A stretch of 27,689 nt of DNA from a virus: IMG/VR virus record IMGVR_UViG_3300045993_000485, positions 1 to 27,689 of that record; one strand, given 5' to 3'. This document shows positions 2,403-25,484 of this stretch, in pieces. Position numbers and translations under genes: made by a program. A model generated the notes under the pieces. The model ran no database searches. It worked only from the letters and a program-made list of their open reading frames with translations, and was not told where the DNA came from. Each line of letters begins with the position of its first letter. The stretch's first letter is position 1.

Positions 2403-3113
2403 ATGAATAACATTGACACAGAACTCGAACTAAGTGCGCTATTCGAAGACATTTCGCCTATGGGTAGCAAGAAAGTTGCAGTTGTCCTGGGCAGGTTTAA
2501 CCCACCAACCAAAGGCCATTACGCAGTTATCAATCAGGTTAAAAAATTCATTCGAGACAATCCTAAATTAGGACTAGATGTTTCACCTGTTGTAGTTATT
2601 ATTGGTGGCAGCAAGTCAGATGCGGATAAGAAACGCAATCCTCTCACGGTAGATGAAAGATCATCCTTCATGAAAGGATCAGGTAATGCTAATGGTGTTG
2701 TATTCAGACAGGCTGTCAATGCTTTTGCTGCTCTTGCAGACCTAAGAGATGCAGGATTAGAACCTATTGCTGTTGCTGCAGGAACAGATCGCATTGATGA
2801 GTATATTAAAATTCTCGATAAGAACTTCAAGACACCTGATGGTGGTGAAATCAAACACCACAAAATACATCTCGTGCGGAATAATGATGCTGTCCTCACT
2901 AAGAAGGATGACAAAGCGAAGGCAATGGATTCAGCTCTTGCTTCAATGAAAGACGGAGATGATCTATCTACAGATCTGGTTTCTGGTTCTCTCGCGAGAC
3001 GAGCAGTAGAACTAGGATATGAAAAGGAATTTGCAGAAATCGTAGGATTAGAATCCAAACCTGCAATAGCAAAAAAGATGTTCGCTAAAATAGCAGCATC
3101 ACTTAAGGAATAA
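2403..3113 (+). CDS. HIGH-motif nucleotidyltransferase (NadM/NMNAT-like)
   Basis: This is an adenylyl- or cytidylyltransferase-fold enzyme, probably transferring a nucleotide to a phosphorylated substrate such as NMN. The substrate cannot be read from the sequence. The 236 residues carry GRFNPPTKGH (30-39), the (T/H)xGH nucleotide-binding signature. They also carry RNPLTVDER (78-86), as in NadM-like enzymes, AGTDR (126-130), and SGSLARR (194-200) in the place of the usual ISSTxIR motif. Residues 1-20 precede the fold, and M20 is an alternative start. AGGA lies 6 bases before the chosen ATG. The gene is the first in a late unit followed two bases later by the tube-cap gene, which is an odd place for a metabolic enzyme. 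A virion-associated or late-infection role is inferred from position only. Confidence 0.8.
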   Translation: MNNIDTELELSALFEDISPMGSKKVAVVLGRFNPPTKGHYAVINQVKKFIRDNPKLGLDVSPVVVIIGGSKSDADKKRNPLTVDERSSFMKGSGNANGVVFRQAVNAFAALADLRDAGLEPIAVAAGTDRIDEYIKILDKNFKTPDGGEIKHHKIHLVRNNDAVLTKKDDKAKAMDSALASMKDGDDLSTDLVSGSLARRAVELGYEKEFAEIVGLESKPAIAKKMFAKIAASLKE

Positions 3114-12189: not shown

Positions 12190-15100
12190 ATGGCAAGTCA
12201 AAATCTAGATCTAAAAAAACTACTACCTTCAGCAACTAGAAACGAACTATTAGATAGTTTGGTTTCTAATATGTTCAATCGCTTTGTGTCTGAGGAACAG
12301 AGTGTATTGGTGAATGGTAGAATAGGTAAAAATACAGTGGGTGATGCTCCTATTCAAGCATCGAATCTGGATAGAGAAGTAAATGCTATGATACCAGCAC
12401 TTTACTTTAAGTCGGGTAAAGAAGAAAATATCTTCACCTTTGAAGATATGCTTAACAGATTATATGCTTTAGATACCGATGTTCCAAATCTAAGAACTTG
12501 GATGGCAGAGCAGTCATTCAACTATACATACCCAATCAACTATGACAAGTTTATCAACTATGCAAACTATTACTGGGTACAATGGTCCAGCACTGGTCCA
12601 GCATTCAATCCGCTAAATCATCCAGATTACTATGTTATTGAAAATCCAAAGAAAACTGATTTGATAAAGTTGCCAGTTGAGTTAGCAACTACTGAGCCTA
12701 TTAGATTTTGGACTAATAATCGCCCACCAGAAACCTTCACAATATCATTTCAATCAAATCAAAACTATACCATCACCAGTAAGTTTGGAACCGTAGACAC
12801 TGGGTTAAATCAAACCGGTGTGTTAGCGACAATAACATCAGGTGCAGAAAATCTAATCACTATTACTGATGGAACAGATCCTTTAATCTCTTTTGTTATC
12901 ACTGTTGGTGGTTTGCACTTTAGTGCTGGAGATTATTTTACTTTAGACATTACCTATTTTACTAGCAACATTTTAATATCACTAACTGCCGCAAATAGTA
13001 TCGGTAAAGGAACTATTAGTGGAGTAGAAACATTATCACCTTATATGAAGATTGATGGTGTAACAGTTGCTATTGGAGAACGGGTACTTGTTAAAGATCA
13101 GGTTGACCCTACAGAAAATGGTATCTACATTGTCTCTCTTGGAACTAAGTGGTCACTCGCAGATGATGCCAATCAGGCAGCGTATTTTTATAACGGATCT
13201 TCTGTCTATGTCAAAAATGGAACTGCGAATGGACTAAAAACCTTTGTTGCTTCTGGTACCTATCCATCATTAACATTTACCACTGACGGATTTACATCTA
13301 CCGGCCCATTAAATGATTGGCAAAAATATAATACTTGGGTTCATAGAGAAGAACTCTTTACTCTTGAAGCGAGTGGAATTCATTTCACTTCTTATGTTCA
13401 AGCAACGCGTCCTATTATTGAATATAATAATACCTTAGAGTTGAATAGTGCTACACTAAATGGGTATCCATGCCAAACCGGATTTGGTCCAGTTTATGAG
13501 CAAGCAAAAATATCCTTTGGTCAAATACCACAGTTTAATCTTTATAGATATGACGGCACCCATTGCGGTTCAACATCTGGTATTTTCTATTATGTCGAAG
13601 ACCCAGATTTTACTACTGACAGCGTACTTAAAAAGCGTGTAAAAACTACTGCCAACTATGATTATATTTTTGGTATTGGTATTAAAGATACTGAAGGTCG
13701 TCTTTTATACTATAAAGATGCTGGGCAACTTAAATCTGTTTGGAGAGAAGGTGTCATAGCATCTGAGCATACGTTACCTATTATTTTTTCTGGTGGATAT
13801 AATCGTGGCACCTTAGTAGTCGACCACATTTTTGCTTCTGCTGATAATCAAGGTTGGACTGCTAAAGTGTTAACCCCTACTACATTTAGTATTACTGGAA
13901 CAAGAAGTGGATTTGTCGGGAATGCTACTGTTGGGATACAGTTTGCTTGTGATGATATTGCATTAACCATCTCTAATGGAATAACACCCTTTGTAGCAGG
14001 AGAGTTTTTCACTTTCATTGTTCACACCACTATTACTCCAAGATATGTTAAAAAGAACGTAGATGAAAGTATAGTGAACTATCCAGGTGGCATTGGTACT
14101 GATATTGCCGATGGTAATAATGATGGTACATGGATGAATCCTGCTAGAATGTTCGAGAACATAGAACGCGAAACAAGAACAGAAGTCAACTTTGGCGATT
14201 TACTCAATCATACTCGTAGCGTTATAAAAAACCAAAATGGTTTTGTTGGCACGTCCTTTGGCGTAAACAATCTTAGAACACTAGACTTTAATCCGGGTCT
14301 TGGCGGAACTATTCGTGAGTTTGGAAGCAACTTTCCATTGCTTGCTTCCATGCTTATTCAGAAGGATGTTTCACCTCTTACTATTATTGATTTTGCCGAG
14401 CAACAATATCTGACTGCACTATCTAGCGTTGATCAGTTTATGATCAATGATTTCCCAGAATATCTTGCTAGTATTTCGCACGTTGGGGTTACCGATATTA
14501 ATCCTAATCACCCAGACATTCAGAGACTTGTAGAATATTTTGAGCAACTTCGCACAGACAATGAAGTATTAAAACACACATTCAGCGATACTACCGCATT
14601 AGTTAAGTGCTGGCCGATTACTTTACCTATGATGGGATTAACACCTCGGGTAGTGCCTGATATTACATTTGATAGAGAACTTGGTTTAGATACGATCGTT
14701 CACCATGATGGTCACGTATCTTCTGTCACCCCAAGAAATATGGCATTAGACAGACAGTTACTTGCAACGGTTGTTACTCGCTCAGATGGATCCCAATCTG
14801 CTGGCATCTTTTCCGAAAGTATGCCAGCTATTCCATATGCTCGTCAGCTCTGGTTTAAACCATCTACTCAGCAGTTGTTTATGTTCAGTGTTGATACTGA
14901 TGCAACAAATCCAGTCGCTGGGGTATCAGGTGATATTTGGTATAACAGAAATCTAAATGAACTTAAAATATGGGATATAACCGGTAATGCATGGATTACT
15001 CCAAATGTCAATATGACAGTTGACAGTCGCTGGACAGAAATCTCTATTGCGAATATTAAGAACAGTTTAGTTATCGCTATCGAAAATAAGTTGTATGCAA

Positions 15101-18100
15101 GTGTTAGCACTCACCAACAGATAAACTTTGATATATTCTCAAACGCTTTATCGGGATATTCTTCAGTTGAACTAGCAAAGTTTTCTGCTAAGTATAACTA
15201 CGATACATTTGCAGCAGATTATTCAGCATCAGATCCATTTACATGGAATTATTCCTTATCACTTCCATATGCAAGATGGTATGATAACTACTTAGGTTAT
15301 TTTGAAGCTGCGGGATATCATGATGTCATTAGACCAAATCTTGAACCCTGGAAGTTAAGTGATGGTTTATTACCACTTGCTGTTTGGAATGCTATTTATA
15401 AATGTAATGTTGTCGCTACATCGGATCGTATATCTGCCAGAGTTGTCGCAACGACTGATGTCACATCACTATTTGGTATTCAAGTCATCGATGATACATT
15501 ACTATTTGTTGGCGATAAAGTATTGTTGCAAGCGCAAGCATCTCCAATATACAATGGGCTTTATATAGTTTCTTCTGTGGGCTGGAGTAGAAGTTCTGAT
15601 ACTCTTGCATATCAACAGACAGTAGATATTACTGATGGATATGAATATAAAGGCAGTACATGGGTATTAACGTCAGCACCAGCCGTTGGTGTGCTACCGT
15701 TAGTTTATGAACAGGCTCGCCTTTGGTCAAATCAGATGTGGGCTGATATAAAAGCTGCAAATCCGACTTTGAAGCTCTGTGTTAATACTCGCACAGATGA
15801 GTTGCTGCCACCTTATGTAAACCCTTCTTCATGGGGTGCATCAGAAGCAATACTGAATATTATCCCAACTGGGGTAAGTAATACATATTCGTTTGGTCAA
15901 AATGGTCCAATAGAAAATGTTTGGAAAAAATCTCTTGAATATAGATATGGGTTATGCAGAACCGCTTTTAGATTAAACCCACTTGGGTTTTTAGATAAAT
16001 CATGGGGTGAAACATATATCAAAGTTGAGGGTAATGTCCGTGTTGAACGAAACCTAATGTCACCATTATCTTCATCTAAGTTCTTGCTTCACGGTGAAAA
16101 ACTAAATGTCATTAACTCTTACTTACCTTCAGAAGTTCAGTCAAGAATATTTGGGTTAAACTTTACATCACCTACTCCAAAATCATTTGAGTTTGAAGTA
16201 ACCCATACTGCTGACAATGTCACCATCTTATCCGCAAAAATGGATGGTGTTTATCAAGGCGATATACAAGTCGGATTATTAAGTTCATTCGGAATTTTCA
16301 TATATGACATGGGAATTCCATATGAGTTAGGTGAAAAACTATTAGCAACATTCGATGGAACAACTGCTGTTTATTCACACGTCCCAGCAATGGTTAAGAA
16401 GTTCAAAGGCTTTGGACAGACATTTACCAATCTCCTGAGATATAGTTACATTGATACAGAGTTATCGGAAGTGTCTCAAGCATATCGCGGGTGGACAGTG
16501 AAACTCACGCATCGTTTGGGTGCGATGATTAGACCTGATACACTGTCTATTAATACTACTCAAGGGGTTATGCCTTCCACTGGATTTAATGTAGTCTTGA
16601 AGAAATCTGCTAATGTTAGAAGTCTTTGGATATCAGCATTGCGTATTCAGTTGTTAGAAATGGGAAGCAAGAAGCTTAATGCTGATGGATTGTTTATTCC
16701 ATCTAACGATGCAAGCGATTGGATATTCCGTATTGAAGGTTATAATGTCCAACACCCAACAGTTGATCGTTATATGTTAGACGATACTTCTGGATATGAA
16801 ACATTCTATGCGCTAAATAAACGCACCTCTGATAATGTATGGAAGAGATGCAATACTAGAACCGCATTTCTAACAACTACCATCCCGATTGCGGTCACTG
16901 GATTACAGAATGTTGTCAACTTTATCTACGGGTATATTGATAGATTGACAGAACTTGGTTGGACTATTAACGGGGATAATCCAGTAACTGATAAGGAAAC
17001 AGGTAGAAATATTGATTGGCAGTTAGAAGTAGAAAAACTTATTGATAGAGTTTATGGTGGCATGTTAGTGGATGAAGGTCACATTTTGAACCCATTCATG
17101 GGCAAACTTTCTGTTACTACCCCAGTAGGATTGCTTGCTAAATATTCTGATGCTAACTATATCGATGCATATTCTATGCAAGCAGCATATGATGTGACCG
17201 GATTGAATATCCCCGTATCTAATCTATCTGTTATTAGAACAGATGATGGGGCAATAACATACTCTTCTACACCTATATTCTCTGCTCATGTATTCCTAGA
17301 CGAATATGAACACGTCATTCTTATGAACCAGAAGTTCTCTGACGAATATTCTTCAGCGATGGTTTTTGATACCTTCTTAGGATTGCGTTTGGATACGGCA
17401 TATCTAAGTTTCATTAGACAGCAGACTGCTAATGGGAAACCAACCTTTGATGGTTTCTTCTTGAGTGGTAACGATGTGAAGCGTAATATGTCTTCTTCGA
17501 TAGATGCTGTCAGTAACTATTACGATGCTAATCAAACCTTCTATGAACCAACAACTGCTAAGCATGCTCTGTCATTGTTAGGATTTGTTAAGAAGGATTA
17601 CTTTAATGCTATCAATGTTAACGATACTACCCAGTTTAACTTCTGGAGAGGATTGATACAGGCAAAGGGAACTAATATGGCGATCGATGCTTTTGTAAAC
17701 TACAAAAAGTTTACATCAGCATCTACTGACGAATATTGGGCATATAAGTTAGCAACGTTTGGTGATGCTCGTGAAAGAACATTCCCTGAAGTCAAGATTA
17801 ATCCTGCCGACGTATTCCAAAAGTTTACTAAGTTGCAGTTCTATTCTCGCGATCTTCCACATGACCCACTTCCATTATTTACCCAGATAGAAAACATTGA
17901 TGATACCCGTTGGTATTCTATTGATGACTTGGGTAAAGGTATGAAGTTTGAAGCACAGTATATTACTGAAACTGTTACCGCCGCTCACTCCGGTTATGTC
18001 GTTCTTAATAACATCTATCATAATGGTGATAGCATGTCTCCTACTGTTACTGGTGGTGCAGTAATAATCAATGCTAAACTTATTTGGGTTCCTGGTGCTG

Positions 18101-20658
18101 GAACATATACTGTTACTGGTTATACATGGAACAATCCAACCAAGCATTCACCTATAAAACTATTCGACTACCAAGACAACGTATTGATAGATGAAATAGG
18201 ATTGTGGCACCCAGCAATAGGTATCCATTCTGCCAATGCATTGGAAGTTGTTAACATCATTTCTAATACTGACCCGGCACAATACAACTATTCTACTAAG
18301 ACAACAAATAACTCTCAGTATAGAACCTTGAAACCTTGGGGTGCTCGTGAAGTTGGTAGAGTATTCTGGGACACAAGTAATCTTGCTTACATTCCTTACT
18401 ATGATGCTACCATATTCCCATCAATAGATGCAAGACATGCACGTTGGGGAGCATTGGCAGAATATGCAAGCATTGACCTTTATCAGTGGACTGAAAGTTC
18501 TGTTCACCCCTCAAAATACAATGACCTTGCTACCGCAGAAGAAGGGGATTCCTCTATCGACAAATCAGTTCGTGCATCTGGTAAAGTAGCATTTGCTAAC
18601 TATTACAAACGCAACAGAACTATTACTGCACGTGCTATCGCTTGGTCTAAATCAGAAAATGGTTTTGCAGATGGACACCCAGCATTTGGTCCAGCAGAGT
18701 TTACAAAGGTTTATGTTTCTGGTAATACCCTTATCGCTGATGCAGGTCGAGTTGCAGATATTAACCTTGCTGCTGGTAGAAACTTTGGTGGATGGGATGT
18801 TGTTAATAACAAACCAGTCGGCGAAGTTAGTATAGGTTCTGTTCTGTCATATTCTATTGGTGTCGAAAATGATTTAAGCGCTCCAATTTTACCAAGTGGA
18901 TTGAGCATTTCTGCTATCACTAACGGATTGTTCGGTGTTCGTATTGGTAAAATAACCATTCAATCATATATTGAAAATGAAATCGAGTATCTAAGAATGT
19001 CAGATACTACTGGATTTTATCAAGATGTTGAACCAAAAACTCCATTAACAATAGACTCACAGTTTGATATCGAGTTTGATAAGTTTGGTCTAAAGATAAA
19101 TGTTGTTATCGACCCAACAACTATATCTACTATCATTGCAGCGATTGGAACAAGTGGTAGTATTTTTGTTCGTGAAGCAGTTACTTTTACCGAAATAATT
19201 CCTTTATCATCTGTAATGTATAACAATGACCAGACGTCAATCGACTATACATCTACGGAATATGAATGGCGCACATGGGAAGTTCCAACCCAGACTCAGT
19301 TAGATGCTGATTTGGTATCTCCTAACAATACCTGGTTACCATATCTTGGAAATACTGTTACTACAACAGCATCTTCTACTATTGCCGCAGCAATGAAGGA
19401 TGCTGGTAATGAACTAACTCTAAAATCTGGTGTTGTCATAAAACGCTTCAATTCATCTTGGTCTAACTGGGAAAGTTTAGTACCTATAAAAATGGAAACT
19501 GTTTCCGATGGCGCATCTGTTGTTGCTTTTGAGCTACCAGAAACCATTGATGAACACAGATTATCTCTTTACATTAATGGCATTCAGGTTAACCCAGATG
19601 GATATGTTGCAAATGGGATGATTGCAAGTCTTGTAAATAAAAATGGTAATGTTTACACCCCAAATATTCCACCAGAAGGTTCAACCATAACAATGCTTTA
19701 TCGGGCATACCACCCAACAGATAAAGAGTTAGCGTTTGATCCAGATGTTGCGGATGATGTTACTATCCAAATCCAATACAAGCAAGATTATCAATACACT
19801 GAACTCGAAATAAGAAATGATGATGGTAACATTACTGGCAAGAAATATTATTTCTGGGTCCAAGATAAATCTATTCCTCAGACCGGAAAAGCAATGTCAT
19901 TAGAGCAAGCAAAAATCCAGTTGAAGTCTGGGCCTAATGCATTCACTATCTTCTCTAGGTTGTTAGCAGATCCAACTATAAAGAATGTTCATCAAGCATC
20001 CTATGATTCTTGCTCGATATCCGGGTTGAACATGTATGTCACGAAGAACGATTCCTTTAAGTTGAGAATGCTACGTGACTTTACATTAAGGGATGACCCA
20101 GAAGAAATGAGTTTGAAAAATACTCATACTGAATGGGCACTTATTAGAAAGCAGCAGTCTTCTAAGATACCAGAAAAACTATGGGGTATTCTTACTGATG
20201 CTATTTGTGGTATGGATATCGGAGGAAATGTTCTCCCATCTCAAACTCGAGTCGATTATGACTTGAGGAATGGAACGAGAAGCAGATTTGGATTTAACTC
20301 AGGTCAGATATTTGCAGACACTGCACTACTTCGCACCTCAGTTACTAATACAATCCTCAATACCGGACTTACATTACATCTTGTAAATAAGACAGTACCA
20401 GATTATATTACTGCCCTTGATTTTAACAATAGCGATTTATGGTTTTCTAATGCTACTAATGCAAGAGTAACTATGAACCTAATATGGAATACTGGTCGAG
20501 CATTGCAGGTTAACGAAATATTTTTCAGTGCATTGGAAGATGCCCTTGCCAACAACTATGAATTTAGCGACATGTTCAAAACATCTCTTATAACTATTAA
20601 CTCTGCAACAACTATTACAGACCAATCTATTATGGAGCAGTTGGATGAGCTCTACTAA
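12190..20658 (+). CDS. Giant baseplate wedge protein in gp7 position (2822 residues)
   Basis: This very large virion protein directly follows gp6, where T4 has gp7 (1032 residues). No enzyme motif is visible. The N-terminus (1-130) is mostly helical and polar, with NMFNRFVSEEQSVLVNGRIG and FEDMLNRLYALDTDVPNL, then Tyr-rich NYTYPINYDKFINYANYYWV. The rest is rich in beta strands, Asn, Thr and Tyr. At least two kinds of small domain recur. One is a VLVKDQxDPxxNGIYxV domain at about residues 270-350 and 1075-1165. The other is a beta-sandwich-like stretch ending F-x-A-G-D/E-x-F at about 184-255 and 534-615. The C-terminus ends in helical ALEDALANNYEFSDMF and MEQLDELY. The start has no clear Shine-Dalgarno. 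The stop overlaps the next gene by 14 bases. The gp7 role is inferred from order and size. Confidence 0.6.
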   Translation: MASQNLDLKKLLPSATRNELLDSLVSNMFNRFVSEEQSVLVNGRIGKNTVGDAPIQASNLDREVNAMIPALYFKSGKEENIFTFEDMLNRLYALDTDVPNLRTWMAEQSFNYTYPINYDKFINYANYYWVQWSSTGPAFNPLNHPDYYVIENPKKTDLIKLPVELATTEPIRFWTNNRPPETFTISFQSNQNYTITSKFGTVDTGLNQTGVLATITSGAENLITITDGTDPLISFVITVGGLHFSAGDYFTLDITYFTSNILISLTAANSIGKGTISGVETLSPYMKIDGVTVAIGERVLVKDQVDPTENGIYIVSLGTKWSLADDANQAAYFYNGSSVYVKNGTANGLKTFVASGTYPSLTFTTDGFTSTGPLNDWQKYNTWVHREELFTLEASGIHFTSYVQATRPIIEYNNTLELNSATLNGYPCQTGFGPVYEQAKISFGQIPQFNLYRYDGTHCGSTSGIFYYVEDPDFTTDSVLKKRVKTTANYDYIFGIGIKDTEGRLLYYKDAGQLKSVWREGVIASEHTLPIIFSGGYNRGTLVVDHIFASADNQGWTAKVLTPTTFSITGTRSGFVGNATVGIQFACDDIALTISNGITPFVAGEFFTFIVHTTITPRYVKKNVDESIVNYPGGIGTDIADGNNDGTWMNPARMFENIERETRTEVNFGDLLNHTRSVIKNQNGFVGTSFGVNNLRTLDFNPGLGGTIREFGSNFPLLASMLIQKDVSPLTIIDFAEQQYLTALSSVDQFMINDFPEYLASISHVGVTDINPNHPDIQRLVEYFEQLRTDNEVLKHTFSDTTALVKCWPITLPMMGLTPRVVPDITFDRELGLDTIVHHDGHVSSVTPRNMALDRQLLATVVTRSDGSQSAGIFSESMPAIPYARQLWFKPSTQQLFMFSVDTDATNPVAGVSGDIWYNRNLNELKIWDITGNAWITPNVNMTVDSRWTEISIANIKNSLVIAIENKLYASVSTHQQINFDIFSNALSGYSSVELAKFSAKYNYDTFAADYSASDPFTWNYSLSLPYARWYDNYLGYFEAAGYHDVIRPNLEPWKLSDGLLPLAVWNAIYKCNVVATSDRISARVVATTDVTSLFGIQVIDDTLLFVGDKVLLQAQASPIYNGLYIVSSVGWSRSSDTLAYQQTVDITDGYEYKGSTWVLTSAPAVGVLPLVYEQARLWSNQMWADIKAANPTLKLCVNTRTDELLPPYVNPSSWGASEAILNIIPTGVSNTYSFGQNGPIENVWKKSLEYRYGLCRTAFRLNPLGFLDKSWGETYIKVEGNVRVERNLMSPLSSSKFLLHGEKLNVINSYLPSEVQSRIFGLNFTSPTPKSFEFEVTHTADNVTILSAKMDGVYQGDIQVGLLSSFGIFIYDMGIPYELGEKLLATFDGTTAVYSHVPAMVKKFKGFGQTFTNLLRYSYIDTELSEVSQAYRGWTVKLTHRLGAMIRPDTLSINTTQGVMPSTGFNVVLKKSANVRSLWISALRIQLLEMGSKKLNADGLFIPSNDASDWIFRIEGYNVQHPTVDRYMLDDTSGYETFYALNKRTSDNVWKRCNTRTAFLTTTIPIAVTGLQNVVNFIYGYIDRLTELGWTINGDNPVTDKETGRNIDWQLEVEKLIDRVYGGMLVDEGHILNPFMGKLSVTTPVGLLAKYSDANYIDAYSMQAAYDVTGLNIPVSNLSVIRTDDGAITYSSTPIFSAHVFLDEYEHVILMNQKFSDEYSSAMVFDTFLGLRLDTAYLSFIRQQTANGKPTFDGFFLSGNDVKRNMSSSIDAVSNYYDANQTFYEPTTAKHALSLLGFVKKDYFNAINVNDTTQFNFWRGLIQAKGTNMAIDAFVNYKKFTSASTDEYWAYKLATFGDARERTFPEVKINPADVFQKFTKLQFYSRDLPHDPLPLFTQIENIDDTRWYSIDDLGKGMKFEAQYITETVTAAHSGYVVLNNIYHNGDSMSPTVTGGAVIINAKLIWVPGAGTYTVTGYTWNNPTKHSPIKLFDYQDNVLIDEIGLWHPAIGIHSANALEVVNIISNTDPAQYNYSTKTTNNSQYRTLKPWGAREVGRVFWDTSNLAYIPYYDATIFPSIDARHARWGALAEYASIDLYQWTESSVHPSKYNDLATAEEGDSSIDKSVRASGKVAFANYYKRNRTITARAIAWSKSENGFADGHPAFGPAEFTKVYVSGNTLIADAGRVADINLAAGRNFGGWDVVNNKPVGEVSIGSVLSYSIGVENDLSAPILPSGLSISAITNGLFGVRIGKITIQSYIENEIEYLRMSDTTGFYQDVEPKTPLTIDSQFDIEFDKFGLKINVVIDPTTISTIIAAIGTSGSIFVREAVTFTEIIPLSSVMYNNDQTSIDYTSTEYEWRTWEVPTQTQLDADLVSPNNTWLPYLGNTVTTTASSTIAAAMKDAGNELTLKSGVVIKRFNSSWSNWESLVPIKMETVSDGASVVAFELPETIDEHRLSLYINGIQVNPDGYVANGMIASLVNKNGNVYTPNIPPEGSTITMLYRAYHPTDKELAFDPDVADDVTIQIQYKQDYQYTELEIRNDDGNITGKKYYFWVQDKSIPQTGKAMSLEQAKIQLKSGPNAFTIFSRLLADPTIKNVHQASYDSCSISGLNMYVTKNDSFKLRMLRDFTLRDDPEEMSLKNTHTEWALIRKQQSSKIPEKLWGILTDAICGMDIGGNVLPSQTRVDYDLRNGTRSRFGFNSGQIFADTALLRTSVTNTILNTGLTLHLVNKTVPDYITALDFNNSDLWFSNATNARVTMNLIWNTGRALQVNEIFFSALEDALANNYEFSDMFKTSLITINSATTITDQSIMEQLDELY
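12997..13260 (+). repeat. KDQ-NGxY domain, copy 1 (in the gp7-position protein)
   Basis: Residues about 270-357 hold ERVLVKDQVDPTENGIYIV followed by W-S-L-A-D-D. The pattern G-x-x-V-L-x-K-D-Q-x-D-P-x-x-N-G-I/L-Y-x-V, then a Trp and D-D, recurs at 15409-15690 and 21403-21740. The domain is common in phage tail and fibre proteins. Its exact role is unknown. Confidence 0.7.
15409..15690 (+). repeat. KDQ-NGxY domain, copy 2 (in the gp7-position protein)
   Basis: Residues about 1074-1167 hold DKVLLQAQASPIYNGLYIV followed by GWSRSSD. The spacing and order of the G-x-x-V-L, Q-x-x-P, NGLY and W-x-x-x-D positions match copy 1, but the K-D of KDQ is Q-A here. This suggests an older duplication inside the same gene. 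Confidence 0.65.
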
Positions 20659-23600
20659 TAGTCGATACCTTGCGGTTGCTTCTGGGCATATTGATAGTCT
20701 TATCAGTTATGTCCTAGATGTTAAACCTTATCACGTTAAACTTTCTGAGATTGTAGAACAGTATCTCTTCAATGATAATATCGGGGTAAAGATTACCGAA
20801 GATGATAGGATTTTAGCATTTTTAGGTGCTGACATTCTCCCAGCAGTTGGAACATCAAAGGTTCGTGCTCGTCGCTCTCAAAGCTGGCTTAAGGAACTGA
20901 CATCTGACGGGTCTAGAACTACTTGGCAAGTCCCATTAGTCTCAATGCCTAAACTTGCTAGTCAGTCTTCCGAAGCTGGTATGGGCTTCAATATCCATAA
21001 TAGTCTTACTCAAGAAGCATTCATTAAGGGTCGAGATGATGACCTCCAAATCCCAGGTATAGAAAATATTCCTACTAATGGGGTGTTTAATCAGAAGAGA
21101 TGGGAAGGTGTCGGCATTGCCGAAGTTAGAAAGAATGGCGTTCAACAACAAGATACTGTAGATTACTTTTTAAGTCACGGAGTATTTTCTTTTGATACAA
21201 GAGCTGGACAGAGATGGAAAGAACTTAACTTAGAAAATGTTTCTGCATTTGCTGAGAATCCTGGCGAGTTATTTTACCAAGATGTTAGTCAGGCATATGG
21301 TCATATTGTGGATATTACCGGTGGTGACTATGATGAGTGGACACTTACATGTATTGATGATTACACAGAACTAAAGGTGAACACATCAGCGATAGATTAC
21401 ATATCTAATGGGCCGCTAGCATTGTTCGGATCAAATACTGCATTTATTCCTCTTGGATATGGTGGCTCTGCATATAGTTCAACACCTTATCAGCTAGATG
21501 GGCTAGCACCCGATTTAACGAATGGCTTGCTTCCCGGACAGATTGTTTATGCTAAAGACCAAGCAGATCCAAATCAAAATGGTCTATACCGAGTTGAAGA
21601 AGGTGCTTGGACAAATATTAATAGGCACAATGCATTCAATGTTTATGCGGCTGATGGTCATACTGTTATAACACCTGGTATTTTACCTGACACGAATGAA
21701 AGCGAACCATATCTTTGGGTTGCTACGGGGTCAAATCCTGGACAATTAGAAGTTGTTGGTAAAATGCACGGAAGTATTGGAACCGTTACTCCTAACTCAG
21801 CATTTATCTTTACTAATCTAGATCCAGTGTGGTCATTTGGATTTACATATTCAGTAGCACCCGGAACAGTTCTTATTTCTCCCGGCGAATCATTTGTTCT
21901 TACACCATTTAATAAGATCACAGTTCATCCTACTGCACCAGAAGAAAAATGGTCTGTTATAAAAACGAATCCTATTGCTATCGATGGGGATGGTCCAAAT
22001 CTTACCCCTGCTGTATATCGACTCCATCAACCATCTTTAGAAATCCATACACAGTGTTTGGATAGTGCAACAATCCCATATACTTGGTATATTGATTTTA
22101 CTACTAACACCGATTATGTTTTGCATCGTACCCAAGCGGGTGTAGGAACAATAACATACCCTTCAAGAAATATTTTGACAGACGGATATTCTTATAAAGA
22201 TGCCGACATTTATTTTACCTTAACCCCTGGTGATGGTTTTGTTGAGGGTGACGTTATAGATTTTACAACTGGGGCGAATGCTGAAAACTTCATTGTTTAT
22301 GGTTCAGTTTCTGGATGGCAAGGAAATGCTACAATAGGTGAGTGGTATTGGAATGGTAAAATCGGTTTCAAAATACCAGCACTAGACTATTTCCCGAGGA
22401 TAATGAACTCGACTATCGTCTCATCAAGTAATGGTGCTGAGAATGAATGGGCAGTAAAAATAAGCAATAATCAGATTGTTAAAAGCGCGAGTTTTGAAGG
22501 TGGACAGTTTTATATTTCTGGGGATCAGTCTATCATTGCTGCTTCTACTGATGGTGCAGATTGGAAAACTGGAACAGAGGTTGTATTCACACCGACTGTT
22601 CCAGGTCAAAAACTTATTCTTATTGGTAATGATGGTAAGATTTTAACAAGTGTTAATGGTATAGATTGGCACGCAAGTTCTATTAACACAACTGCTAATC
22701 TTCACAACACTGCATTCATACCGGACTTTTTAACTAATGCAACAACCGGTGCATTGTTAAACTGTATTATTGTTGTCGGCGATTCTGGAACTATTCTTAC
22801 ATCTATCAGTGGATTGGGCTGGTCGCAGCAGACAACTAATACAACTGAAAACTTAAATGACATTGCCTGGAATAATGATGCTATAGTTGTAGTTGGAGAT
22901 AATGGAACTATTCTCCGTTCTTTGGATAGAGCAACTTGGACCCCAGTTGTTTCAAATACGACTAACAATTTGATGTCTGTCATCTATGTTGCAGACCATT
23001 CTAAGTTCTTTGCTGTCGGTTATAATGGAACTATTCTTACTTCGACCGATGGTTTAACTTGGTTAAATCTTAGTCCTTTCAACCGCGGATTATTTTGCGA
23101 TATTGCTTACGGATCTTCTATTGCTAATGGACAACAGTTTGTTATTGTTAGTGGCGATGGATTAATGGCAACTTCTTCCGATGGTGTTGCTTGGTCGTCA
23201 TATCAATATAAACCGTTTAACTCTATCACATATGGTAATGGAAAGTTCGTTGCTGTTGGTGGTAGTCTGAGTTTAACCAATCAGTTAGTTCCACTTAAAC
23301 CAGTAAACTCTTGCGCAGAACCTTCTGAATACACTATTACGTTTGTTTCAGATACTACAGCAACTGTCGTCAATAACATTTATGGGTATCGTCCAGCACT
23401 TAAGGTCAATACAGACTGGGATGATGGATATGCCGCATTCCGTTTAGATGCTGTTCCTGGAAGTATTAGTTATACTACTGGAGATATTGTAAAACTCTAT
23501 CTTGCTCCTCGTCAAGCATATGATATAAATGACATCAACAATAATCCTAACTCTGGATATGATGATGATGCGTATGGCGATCCATACGACATTGATTCGG

Positions 23601-24826
23601 ACGCGCGATACGATGATTACCCTTACGATACAGTAAAATACGATACACCTCAGAGCAAATACACCGACATTTTATTGTATGATCAGGAATATTTCCCACT
23701 TTATCATAGTCACGGGTCAGTAATCTTTAAGGGTCTAGCAGATGGTGATAAGATTATCATCGACAAACCAATAAATGATTTAGTTAGATTTAAGATAAGT
23801 GGTGGGGGTGCAGCATTCCCAGAACTTGGATGCGTAAATGATTGGTTACCATTAGAATTTAGAACGAATGCTTTGTTCCCAGACTTAGTAACGATTATCA
23901 ATGCATATTCTGGGGCAAACCCTGATTTGAAAGTGTTCACTATATCTCAGCCAAGATATGCCGAAACAAACATCAATGCTTCTGCAACTTTGATATTCGA
24001 TAAGGATTTTGTTAGCAACTATTTGAGGTTCAATACGAAATTCTCGTTGATGTTCTTGCCTGACCAATCTTATGGTCAGAGAATACGAGTTAAGATTACA
24101 GAAAATCTTAGAACATATGCAAGAGTTAGATTGAATTTTTCCGATATTTCTTACATCAATATTACTGAAAAAGAAATTTTTCATGTCACTGTTGGTAATA
24201 TGGAGTTTGCAGAATCTGTAGATGTTTTAATGGTTGAAGGCGGATCTATTCCAATGCTTATCAATCTTTATGAGGATATGGGATATGATTCTAACCCATA
24301 TGACAGTGCATACTATTCAAATATTGACTTACTTGGAAATATTACCAATCCTACTCCTGGTCCTTCAGCACTTGTTAAAGAAGTGCAAACTAACACAGCA
24401 TCTTCTCATATCGTTGAAAGTTTAATAATTCAAGAAAGACAGATTGCTGCTGTTGGTAGTGGGTATGGATCAGCAGGATATGCAAACCTTCCTTATCAAA
24501 CAAATTTGACATATGCAGCCATCAGGTTGAGTATAATTTATGACAGGTTGATAAGTGTTCTAGGTTTGATAGTGACACATACCGCAGATGAATACTTGGT
24601 AACAGTTAAAAACCGTTTGACATCACCGGTTCTTTATACCACTTCACCTAACCTTATAGTAGAACAACTTACAGAAGTGACGCCAGGGGTATATAGCGCT
24701 ACTGGGGTAACTGACAGTCCATTCGCCAATATGTTCCCGTTTATTCAGCATCCAACTTCTCTAAGTTTGGATTCTTTCTCATTCACCACAACTTGCCACG
24801 CCCCATTCAGGCTAAGAGTTGTGTAA
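20645..24826 (+). CDS. Large baseplate/virion protein with a BNR/YCF48-type beta-propeller
   Basis: This 1393-residue protein is likely a structural part of the baseplate or its edge, made with the gp7-position protein. The N-terminus has a helical segment with SYVLDVKPYHVKLSEIVEQY. A KDQ-NGxY domain lies at about 253-365. Three beta-sandwich-like stretches end G-D/E-x-F/I/V (about 412-423, 531-540 and 942-953). Residues about 615-880 hold six or seven repeats of the form V-G-x-x-G-T-I-L-T-S-x-D-G-x-x-W, spaced 36-45 residues, which is a BNR/YCF48-type propeller. A Asp/Tyr-rich stretch follows (957-1016), echoed at about 1212-1230. The ATG at 20645 has GGAG 7 bases upstream and overlaps the previous gene by 14 bases. 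No enzyme activity can be read; sugar or receptor binding by the propeller is only a possibility. Confidence 0.6.
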   Translation: MSSTNSRYLAVASGHIDSLISYVLDVKPYHVKLSEIVEQYLFNDNIGVKITEDDRILAFLGADILPAVGTSKVRARRSQSWLKELTSDGSRTTWQVPLVSMPKLASQSSEAGMGFNIHNSLTQEAFIKGRDDDLQIPGIENIPTNGVFNQKRWEGVGIAEVRKNGVQQQDTVDYFLSHGVFSFDTRAGQRWKELNLENVSAFAENPGELFYQDVSQAYGHIVDITGGDYDEWTLTCIDDYTELKVNTSAIDYISNGPLALFGSNTAFIPLGYGGSAYSSTPYQLDGLAPDLTNGLLPGQIVYAKDQADPNQNGLYRVEEGAWTNINRHNAFNVYAADGHTVITPGILPDTNESEPYLWVATGSNPGQLEVVGKMHGSIGTVTPNSAFIFTNLDPVWSFGFTYSVAPGTVLISPGESFVLTPFNKITVHPTAPEEKWSVIKTNPIAIDGDGPNLTPAVYRLHQPSLEIHTQCLDSATIPYTWYIDFTTNTDYVLHRTQAGVGTITYPSRNILTDGYSYKDADIYFTLTPGDGFVEGDVIDFTTGANAENFIVYGSVSGWQGNATIGEWYWNGKIGFKIPALDYFPRIMNSTIVSSSNGAENEWAVKISNNQIVKSASFEGGQFYISGDQSIIAASTDGADWKTGTEVVFTPTVPGQKLILIGNDGKILTSVNGIDWHASSINTTANLHNTAFIPDFLTNATTGALLNCIIVVGDSGTILTSISGLGWSQQTTNTTENLNDIAWNNDAIVVVGDNGTILRSLDRATWTPVVSNTTNNLMSVIYVADHSKFFAVGYNGTILTSTDGLTWLNLSPFNRGLFCDIAYGSSIANGQQFVIVSGDGLMATSSDGVAWSSYQYKPFNSITYGNGKFVAVGGSLSLTNQLVPLKPVNSCAEPSEYTITFVSDTTATVVNNIYGYRPALKVNTDWDDGYAAFRLDAVPGSISYTTGDIVKLYLAPRQAYDINDINNNPNSGYDDDAYGDPYDIDSDARYDDYPYDTVKYDTPQSKYTDILLYDQEYFPLYHSHGSVIFKGLADGDKIIIDKPINDLVRFKISGGGAAFPELGCVNDWLPLEFRTNALFPDLVTIINAYSGANPDLKVFTISQPRYAETNINASATLIFDKDFVSNYLRFNTKFSLMFLPDQSYGQRIRVKITENLRTYARVRLNFSDISYINITEKEIFHVTVGNMEFAESVDVLMVEGGSIPMLINLYEDMGYDSNPYDSAYYSNIDLLGNITNPTPGPSALVKEVQTNTASSHIVESLIIQERQIAAVGSGYGSAGYANLPYQTNLTYAAIRLSIIYDRLISVLGLIVTHTADEYLVTVKNRLTSPVLYTTSPNLIVEQLTEVTPGVYSATGVTDSPFANMFPFIQHPTSLSLDSFSFTTTCHAPFRLRVV
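21403..21740 (+). repeat. KDQ-NGxY domain, copy 3 (in the propeller protein)
   Basis: Residues about 253-365 contain GQIVYAKDQADPNQNGLYRV, followed by Trp (WTNINRHNAF) and a longer C-terminal part than in copies 1 and 2. It places the same domain in a neighbouring gene, so the domain has moved between genes or both genes drew it from a common source. Confidence 0.65.
22510..23194 (+). repeat. Beta-propeller repeats (BNR/YCF48-like), six clear units
   Basis: Units lie near 22510, 22612, 22765, 22882, 23010 and 23138, with a weak seventh near 23242. Each carries the hydrophobic strand, G-D/N-x-G, T-I-L-x-S and a Trp. At DNA level GGAACTATTCTTAC occurs identically at 22787-22800 and 23027-23040, which points to fairly recent copying among blades. 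Confidence 0.75.
23517..23690 (+). repeat. Asp/Tyr-rich low-complexity tract
   Basis: Within the propeller protein, residues about 957-1016 are dominated by Asp, Tyr, Pro and Asn, with recurrent YD, PYD and GYD steps (GYDDDAYGDPYDID, then ARYDDYPYDTVKYD). A short echo, GYDSNPYDSAYYSN, lies at about 24280-24330. The codon run TAC-GAT/GAC repeats. It could be a metal-binding or flexible linker. Confidence 0.6.
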
Positions 24827-24845: not shown

Positions 24846-24887
24846 TTATATTCAAAAATGCTTAACTGCAAAGATACTGGAGATAAA

Positions 24888-25484
24888 ATGACTTCTAATA
24901 CTTTTACAACAAAAGTTACTGGCCACGTACAAATCATTGATGGAACTACTAAAGAAGTTCTGTTAGATGATTTTAATGCCGTTCACAATAAGAACATGGC
25001 AATAGCGATTGCTCGGGGATTATCAAATGAGCCTGCTTCTGCTGGAGTTGGTCGTCATCAAATCTACAAGATTAAACTTGGAAGAGGCGGATCAACTATC
25101 GATAGTAGTAACATGATTAGCTATCAGCCGCCGAACATTCTTGGTGACACTGCTGATTTATACTCTGCAACATATGAAGAAGTTATTGATGAATCGATTT
25201 CTGGAACTCCAGTAGAAAACTCGGTAACTTACCAAGAAAGTCCAGCACCTGATTTAACAACTGTTGTTATCTGTACAGCAACTATTGCTGCTGGCGAGCC
25301 TACTGGTCAAGACCTTACCGATTCTCCACCTAATCCAAATCCAGAAGCTCAATACGCTTTTGATGAACTTGGACTGTTTACATCTGACAATAAACTTTTA
25401 ACACATATTATTTTTTCTCCAATCCTTAAAACCGGAAACCGGGAATTAGTTATCACCTACACACTTACCATTGCTGTCAGTTAA
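24888..25484 (+). CDS. Virion structural protein, unknown family (198 residues)
   Basis: I do not recognise a named family. The protein is beta-rich, with no membrane segment or signal peptide. It opens with VTGHVQIIDGTTKEVLLDDF and NAVHNKNMAIAIARGL. It ends with FDELGLFTSDNKLL, then THIIFSPILKTGNRELVITYTLTI, a kind of ending often seen in myovirus tail and baseplate proteins. The start at 24888 is chosen because GGAG lies 5 bases upstream. The ATG at 24858 lacks a Shine-Dalgarno and would sit almost at the transcript start. It is the first of three genes in this late unit, in the area where T4 has gp8-gp12, but no T4 match can be claimed. Confidence 0.6.
   Translation: MTSNTFTTKVTGHVQIIDGTTKEVLLDDFNAVHNKNMAIAIARGLSNEPASAGVGRHQIYKIKLGRGGSTIDSSNMISYQPPNILGDTADLYSATYEEVIDESISGTPVENSVTYQESPAPDLTTVVICTATIAAGEPTGQDLTDSPPNPNPEAQYAFDELGLFTSDNKLLTHIIFSPILKTGNRELVITYTLTIAVS

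Follow-up and report, generated by a model that had tools for sequence, protein, structure and literature searches.

The window, i.e. the whole stretch of 27,689 nucleotides analysed here, is an IMG/VR record consisting of a 27.7-kb fragment. Its source is probably an uncultured jumbo myophage of the T4 type, the jumbo size being inferred from relatives found on contigs of up to 368 kb. The nearest gp6 relatives among named phages come from jumbo myophages, e.g. XacN1, GAP32 and CBB. Two giant genes lie here one after the other, the first encoding a gp7-like protein and the second a protein of 1393 residues with a beta-propeller; the end of the former ORF and the start of the latter overlap by 14 nt. 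Genes resembling gp53, gp5, gp25 and gp6 are also found on the 5' side of the propeller ORF. The features are as follows.

12190..20658, + strand: gp7-like giant wedge protein, 2822 residues (phrog_10938; homologous to XacN1 ORF325)
20645..24826, + strand: propeller-bearing baseplate-operon protein (P0001), 1393 residues
20645..21349, + strand: conserved N-terminal region carrying the DVKPYH motif, residues 1-235 (HMM matches across the family; short weak matches within the gp7-like proteins of Atu_ph07, 30-2, GAP32 and CBB)
21530..21709, + strand: optional module of the KDQADPNQNGLY type, about residues 296-355 (phrog_17264 matches at 296-325 here and also in the gp7-like protein; missing in relative L002)
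22052..22396, + strand: conserved core segment 5' of the insert, residues 470-584, ending in GEWYWNGKIGFKIP (HMM matches in 31/31 family members)
22400..23263, + strand: predicted seven-bladed Ycf48-like beta-propeller, residues 586-873 (blade HMM, AlphaFold, Foldseek, profile against the PDB, Pfam)
22406..22468, + strand: N-terminal half-blade that supplies blade 7 with its outer strands (NSTIVSSSNGAENEWAVKISN; residues 590-594 and 603-607 are strands in the model; conserved in relatives)
22469..23209, + strand: blades 1-6 (motifs, blade HMM, model strands)
22469-22576, + strand: blade 1 (assigned by eye and from the model)
22592-22693, + strand: blade 2
22700-22837, + strand: blade 3
22841-22954, + strand: blade 4
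22958-23077, + strand: blade 5
23084-23209, + strand: blade 6
23210..23263, + strand: inner strands of blade 7 (KPFNSITYGNGKFVAVGG; blade HMM 6.5 bits; model strands)
22787..22800, + strand: 14-nt repeat GGAACTATTCTTAC, copy 1
23027..23040, + strand: 14-nt repeat GGAACTATTCTTAC, copy 2
23687..24139, + strand: conserved core segment 3' of the insert, residues 1015-1165 (HMM matches across the family)
24858..25484, + strand: 208-residue gene, conserved downstream neighbour (phrog_11259, E 1e-44)

The propeller gene belongs to a T4-type baseplate operon, in which it stands beside gp25, gp6 and gp7. This arrangement is conserved: the family has 31 distinct members, and a gp7-like gene lies directly or almost directly 5' in all 30 for which that flank is sequenced (in two of them across a gap, at most 672 nt long), while the 208-residue gene follows in 28 of 31 relatives. 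The earlier note had called the 1393-residue protein a virion protein, and this synteny supports a putative assignment to the baseplate. The same note had placed the propeller on the baseplate and not on the fibres, as a possible receptor-facing or docking module. This is partly supported: its insertion between core segments and the conserved operon agree with the placement. The gp7-like protein CBB_236 was detected in CBB virions, and CBB itself has no copy of the propeller protein (PMC5259590). Pfam, PHROGs and NCBIfam showed no Dit family match for the 1393-residue protein, whose operon is of the T4 type.

The domain had been described, by eye, as BNR/YCF48-type blades at 22510-23270, six of them clear and a seventh possible. 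The type was correctly recognized. Ycf48 ranked first in a Foldseek search of the PDB (E 3.3e-8), in which seven-bladed designs were also matched with target TM scores of 0.69-0.73, and a nine-member profile retrieved Ycf48 chains from the PDB with E 1.4e-15. DUF6242 (PF19755) is matched by six of the nine members and PSII_BNR (PF14870) by four; the window's own domain exceeds the cut-off for DUF6242 but not for PF14870. The blade motifs GxxGxIxxS and SxDGxxW recur across residues 634-850 at a spacing of 117-123 nt, which is also the spacing of the direct repeats at 22770, 22887 and 23010. A blade HMM trained on relatives only finds blades 2-7 in the window and gave no match in 500 shuffles of the same protein.

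An AlphaFold model of residues 400-1200, run with eight relatives, contains the propeller with block pLDDT values of 66-95; the rest of the model is poor (mean 65.1, pTM 0.48), and the position of the propeller relative to the core is not predicted. The predicted fold is confirmed as a beta-propeller whose strands agree with seven blades, a count read from the strand list and the matches rather than from coordinates. Blades 1-6 are contiguous and blade 7 is split between the N- and C-terminal strands of the domain, the usual closure of a propeller. The six whole blades noticed earlier thus stand, and the split blade settles the count at seven. The domain, at 22400-23263, begins about 110 nt before the interval first proposed, a start at 22510 having missed the outer strands of blade 7 (22406-22468). 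The survey of relatives that had been suggested for variation in blade number found none, as a single profile covers each of the 11 copies over its full length.

The near-identical DNA reported between two blades is an exact 14-mer, GGAACTATTCTTAC, at 22787 and 23027, with a partial third copy near 22904. Five 14-mers recur within 800 nt in the whole window, and all of them are inside the propeller domain. Since such repeats code for the G-T-I-L motif, they carry no information that the protein repeat lacks, and no separate explanation of them is needed. A recent blade duplication was considered and set aside as unnecessary: the encoded motif explains the repeat, and the relatives share the blades.

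The propeller is present in 11 of 13 close relatives, the window included. In relative L077 the slot between the core segments is empty, with about 25 residues, and in L029 it holds a GSGYT-type module of about 80 residues, the flanking core segments being 31-45% identical. The propeller is an optional insert in this respect. In a tree calculated from the core only, L029 and L077 group together (88/88) inside a supported group that includes propeller-bearing members (97/94). At least two changes of slot content are required on this tree, a count that is blind to gain versus loss; with the propeller-less sister clade as the outgroup, one gain followed by one loss would be the simplest reading. 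Because the two relatives lacking the propeller nest among those that have it, the domain appears not to be needed for assembly of the core.

A propeller of this type is found in the slot of none of the 18 distant family members, in which the core segments and the EWYWNG motif were placed by HMM, not by MAFFT. One of these members, L049, carries in the slot interval a putative esterase, an alpha/beta-hydrolase assigned to BD-FAE above the cut-off (E 3.7e-10). Profile-profile alignment of the segments 3' of the inserts (global E 1.7e-6, local 2.5e-5) supports the placement of the esterase and the propeller in the same interval, and the two likely occupy the identical loop. Since unrelated modules of about 25 to >300 residues, including a putative sugar-esterase, are tolerated, the slot is probably an exposed, outward-facing insertion loop, accessible to solvent and facing the cell. 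A second site for surface modules, in the C-terminal part, is suggested by a BNR propeller in L046 (residues about 1617-1825) and by Laminin_G_3 (ConA-like) stretches in L038 (residues about 1860-2014).

The origin of the core was sought in several ways. A tblastn search of 50,697 phage records gave no match to the core of the 1393-residue protein, all matches being via the propeller region, and zero matches in phages for the distant relatives L048 and L010. The whole protein retrieved nothing from the PDB with phmmer, and full-length scans of Pfam and PHROGs returned only DUF6242 below cut-off and weak module matches. The AlphaFold model of the propeller-less L029 protein (pLDDT 41.5) gave PDB matches that are not interpretable (best E 0.012). 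The N-terminus containing KPYH is similar to internal stretches of the gp7-like proteins of Atu_ph07 (E about 4e-5, searched among 19 sequences) and phage 30-2, and weakly to those of CBB and GAP32; it is the one part of the protein with such matches. This resemblance to internal gp7-like stretches is a hint that the 1393-residue protein may have split off from gp7. Neither XacN1 ORF325/326 nor CBB_236 showed homology to the core, save for the short KPYH stretch in CBB.

The KDQxDPxxNGxY-type module occurs once in the propeller protein (residues 296-355) and twice in the gp7-like protein (12190-20658, + strand; residues 281-350 and 1075-1175); its PHROG matches are to families of tail fibre proteins and of head decoration proteins. 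In Stenotrophomonas phage RAS14 (L087), the gene of a 1018-residue protein (32406-35462) lies directly 3' of a gp7-like gene; the propeller profile finds this protein with several weak hits (best E 2e-5, searched among 19 sequences), and Pfam has no match for it.

The propeller and the flanking core have mean pairwise identities of 43% and 46%, respectively, and tree distances in the propeller are on average ~1.6x those in the core. The two distance matrices correlate (r 0.58, a value reached in 18 of 9999 permutations), and loop insertions in the propeller are as long as 83 residues. The domain is thus mostly inherited vertically, within one clade, and evolves moderately faster than the core, with freely varying edges. 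A rapidly swapped or hypervariable specificity domain was rejected as an explanation because the propeller evolves mostly along with the core.

The reading preferred here, to which a probability of about 0.5 is given, is that a large baseplate protein has a Ycf48-like propeller in one of its exposed loops and that this propeller would give the baseplate an accessory, multivalent contact with the host surface, probably directed at glycans, in analogy to the inserts of 'evolved Dit' proteins. The propeller would probably face outward and touch the bacterial surface, and the 83-residue loop insertions fit an exposed domain. The esterase that shares the slot in L049 and the ConA-like and BNR domains of L038 and L046 point to surface polysaccharide as a candidate target. 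A glycan is preferred to a protein ligand because of these module types and the phi11 precedent (PMC4901313); the propeller itself has no feature that marks a sugar site. The binding of Ycf48 to a protein, D1 (PMC10403576), counts against the host-contact reading, as does the finding that the propeller is not hypervariable.

This binding of D1 would suit instead a docking module, by which the propeller anchors another virion protein, either a tail fibre or an adjacent wedge subunit, to the baseplate. Propellers are common platforms for protein binding; in A-1(L) the long tail fibre is attached through an insertion domain of the wedge protein (PMC10966104), and in SU10 the short fibre docks on a loop of the nozzle propeller (PMC9509320). 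That the propeller is inherited vertically together with the core also suits a partner within the virion. Docking is nevertheless considered rather unlikely: L077 and L029 lack the propeller while keeping the same neighbouring genes, and an esterase in the slot interval, as in L049, is not what a dock would be expected to resemble. An unlikely reading too is that of a structural spacer or stabilizer, where the propeller packs on other baseplate proteins and binds no ligand. It has parallels in the structural propellers of the SU10 and T7 nozzle proteins (PMC9509320) and draws on a conservation near the core level, but the propeller evolves faster than the core, is dispensable in two nested relatives and is swapped for unrelated folds of 25 to >300 residues. 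A role of the propeller as a glycosidase that attacks the host surface is very improbable. GH74 enzymes are among the Foldseek matches and the distant relative L049 has its putative esterase in the slot interval, but the isolated domain matches no glycosidase family in Pfam or NCBIfam and its invariant residues are mostly blade-motif residues, namely Gly, Trp and Ser.

The propeller insert can be set beside several known phage proteins. Evolved Dit proteins of siphophages likewise carry an optional surface-binding insert in a baseplate structural protein and have insert-free relatives; their inserts with carbohydrate-binding domains promote adsorption (PMC10688798). They differ in that the hosts are Gram-positive, the carbohydrate-binding domains have other folds and the role in adsorption was tested. 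Phage phi11 Gp45 and phiKZ gp131 are likewise baseplate propellers proposed to contact the host, and gp131C is seven-bladed; Gp45, a five-bladed propeller protein, is a trimer that binds the receptor, and the same role is putative for gp131, whereas the window's propeller is an insert in a wedge-operon protein (PMC4901313). The nozzles of SU10 and T7 also have a propeller in a tail structural protein, that of SU10 with seven blades and velcro closure, but these phages are short-tailed and the nozzle propeller lines the tail channel and forms the core of the protein (PMC9509320).

Closest in fold are Ycf48/PSII_BNR (PF14870) and DUF6242 (PF19755), with the same blade motifs and seven blades. 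Ycf48 is a thylakoid assembly factor, whereas the window's propeller is an insert in a phage protein; the six-Arg patch by which Ycf48 binds D1 (PMC10403576) has no equivalent in the 288-residue phage propeller, which contains 3 Arg. The gp7 'baseplate wedge initiator' of Synechococcus phages S-CAM9, S-SSM7 and S-8S53 to S-8S56 likewise has a Ycf48-like propeller in a giant baseplate protein. There the propeller is inside gp7 itself, and the core segments of the window's protein are unmatched in those gp7. In the gp7 of S-CAM9 (L015), GSGY-type modules precede the Ycf48-like propeller, so that it contains both module types that alternate in the slot of the window's family.

Adhesion inserts (PMC10688798), receptor-binding propellers (PMC4901313), structural propellers (PMC9509320) and, from databases, the Ycf48-like propellers of Synechococcus gp7 were already known. 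What appears to be new is the host protein family together with one site that is either empty or filled by a propeller, by a small module or by an esterase; no published description of the propeller-slot family was found in the literature searched. It is suggested, tentatively, that an undescribed giant baseplate family, perhaps split off from the C-terminal part of gp7, is a modular display platform of uncultured jumbo phages, in which the wedge and not the fibres bears unrelated surface modules (Ycf48-like propeller, GSGYT domain and esterase, with lectin-like and BNR domains in other places). Should the slot serve host contact, host recognition would reside partly in the baseplate wedge, outside the fibre genes used by host-prediction methods, and jumbo phages with contractile tails would be a further case of the strategy known from evolved Dit in siphophages that infect Gram-positive bacteria. 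Slots that are empty or refilled in nature offer ready-made comparisons.

Two further genes of the window may be mentioned. The baseplate operon is headed by a Cytidyltransferase/NMNAT-like gene (2403-3113, + strand; phrog_3041, phrog_395); CBB_243, which has the same position in CBB, is listed as a virion structural protein (PMC5259590). A 217-residue ORF at 1634-2287 on the - strand, located between the late sigma factor and nucleotidyltransferase genes, resembles by eye a GIY-YIG homing endonuclease with NUMOD3-like repeats.
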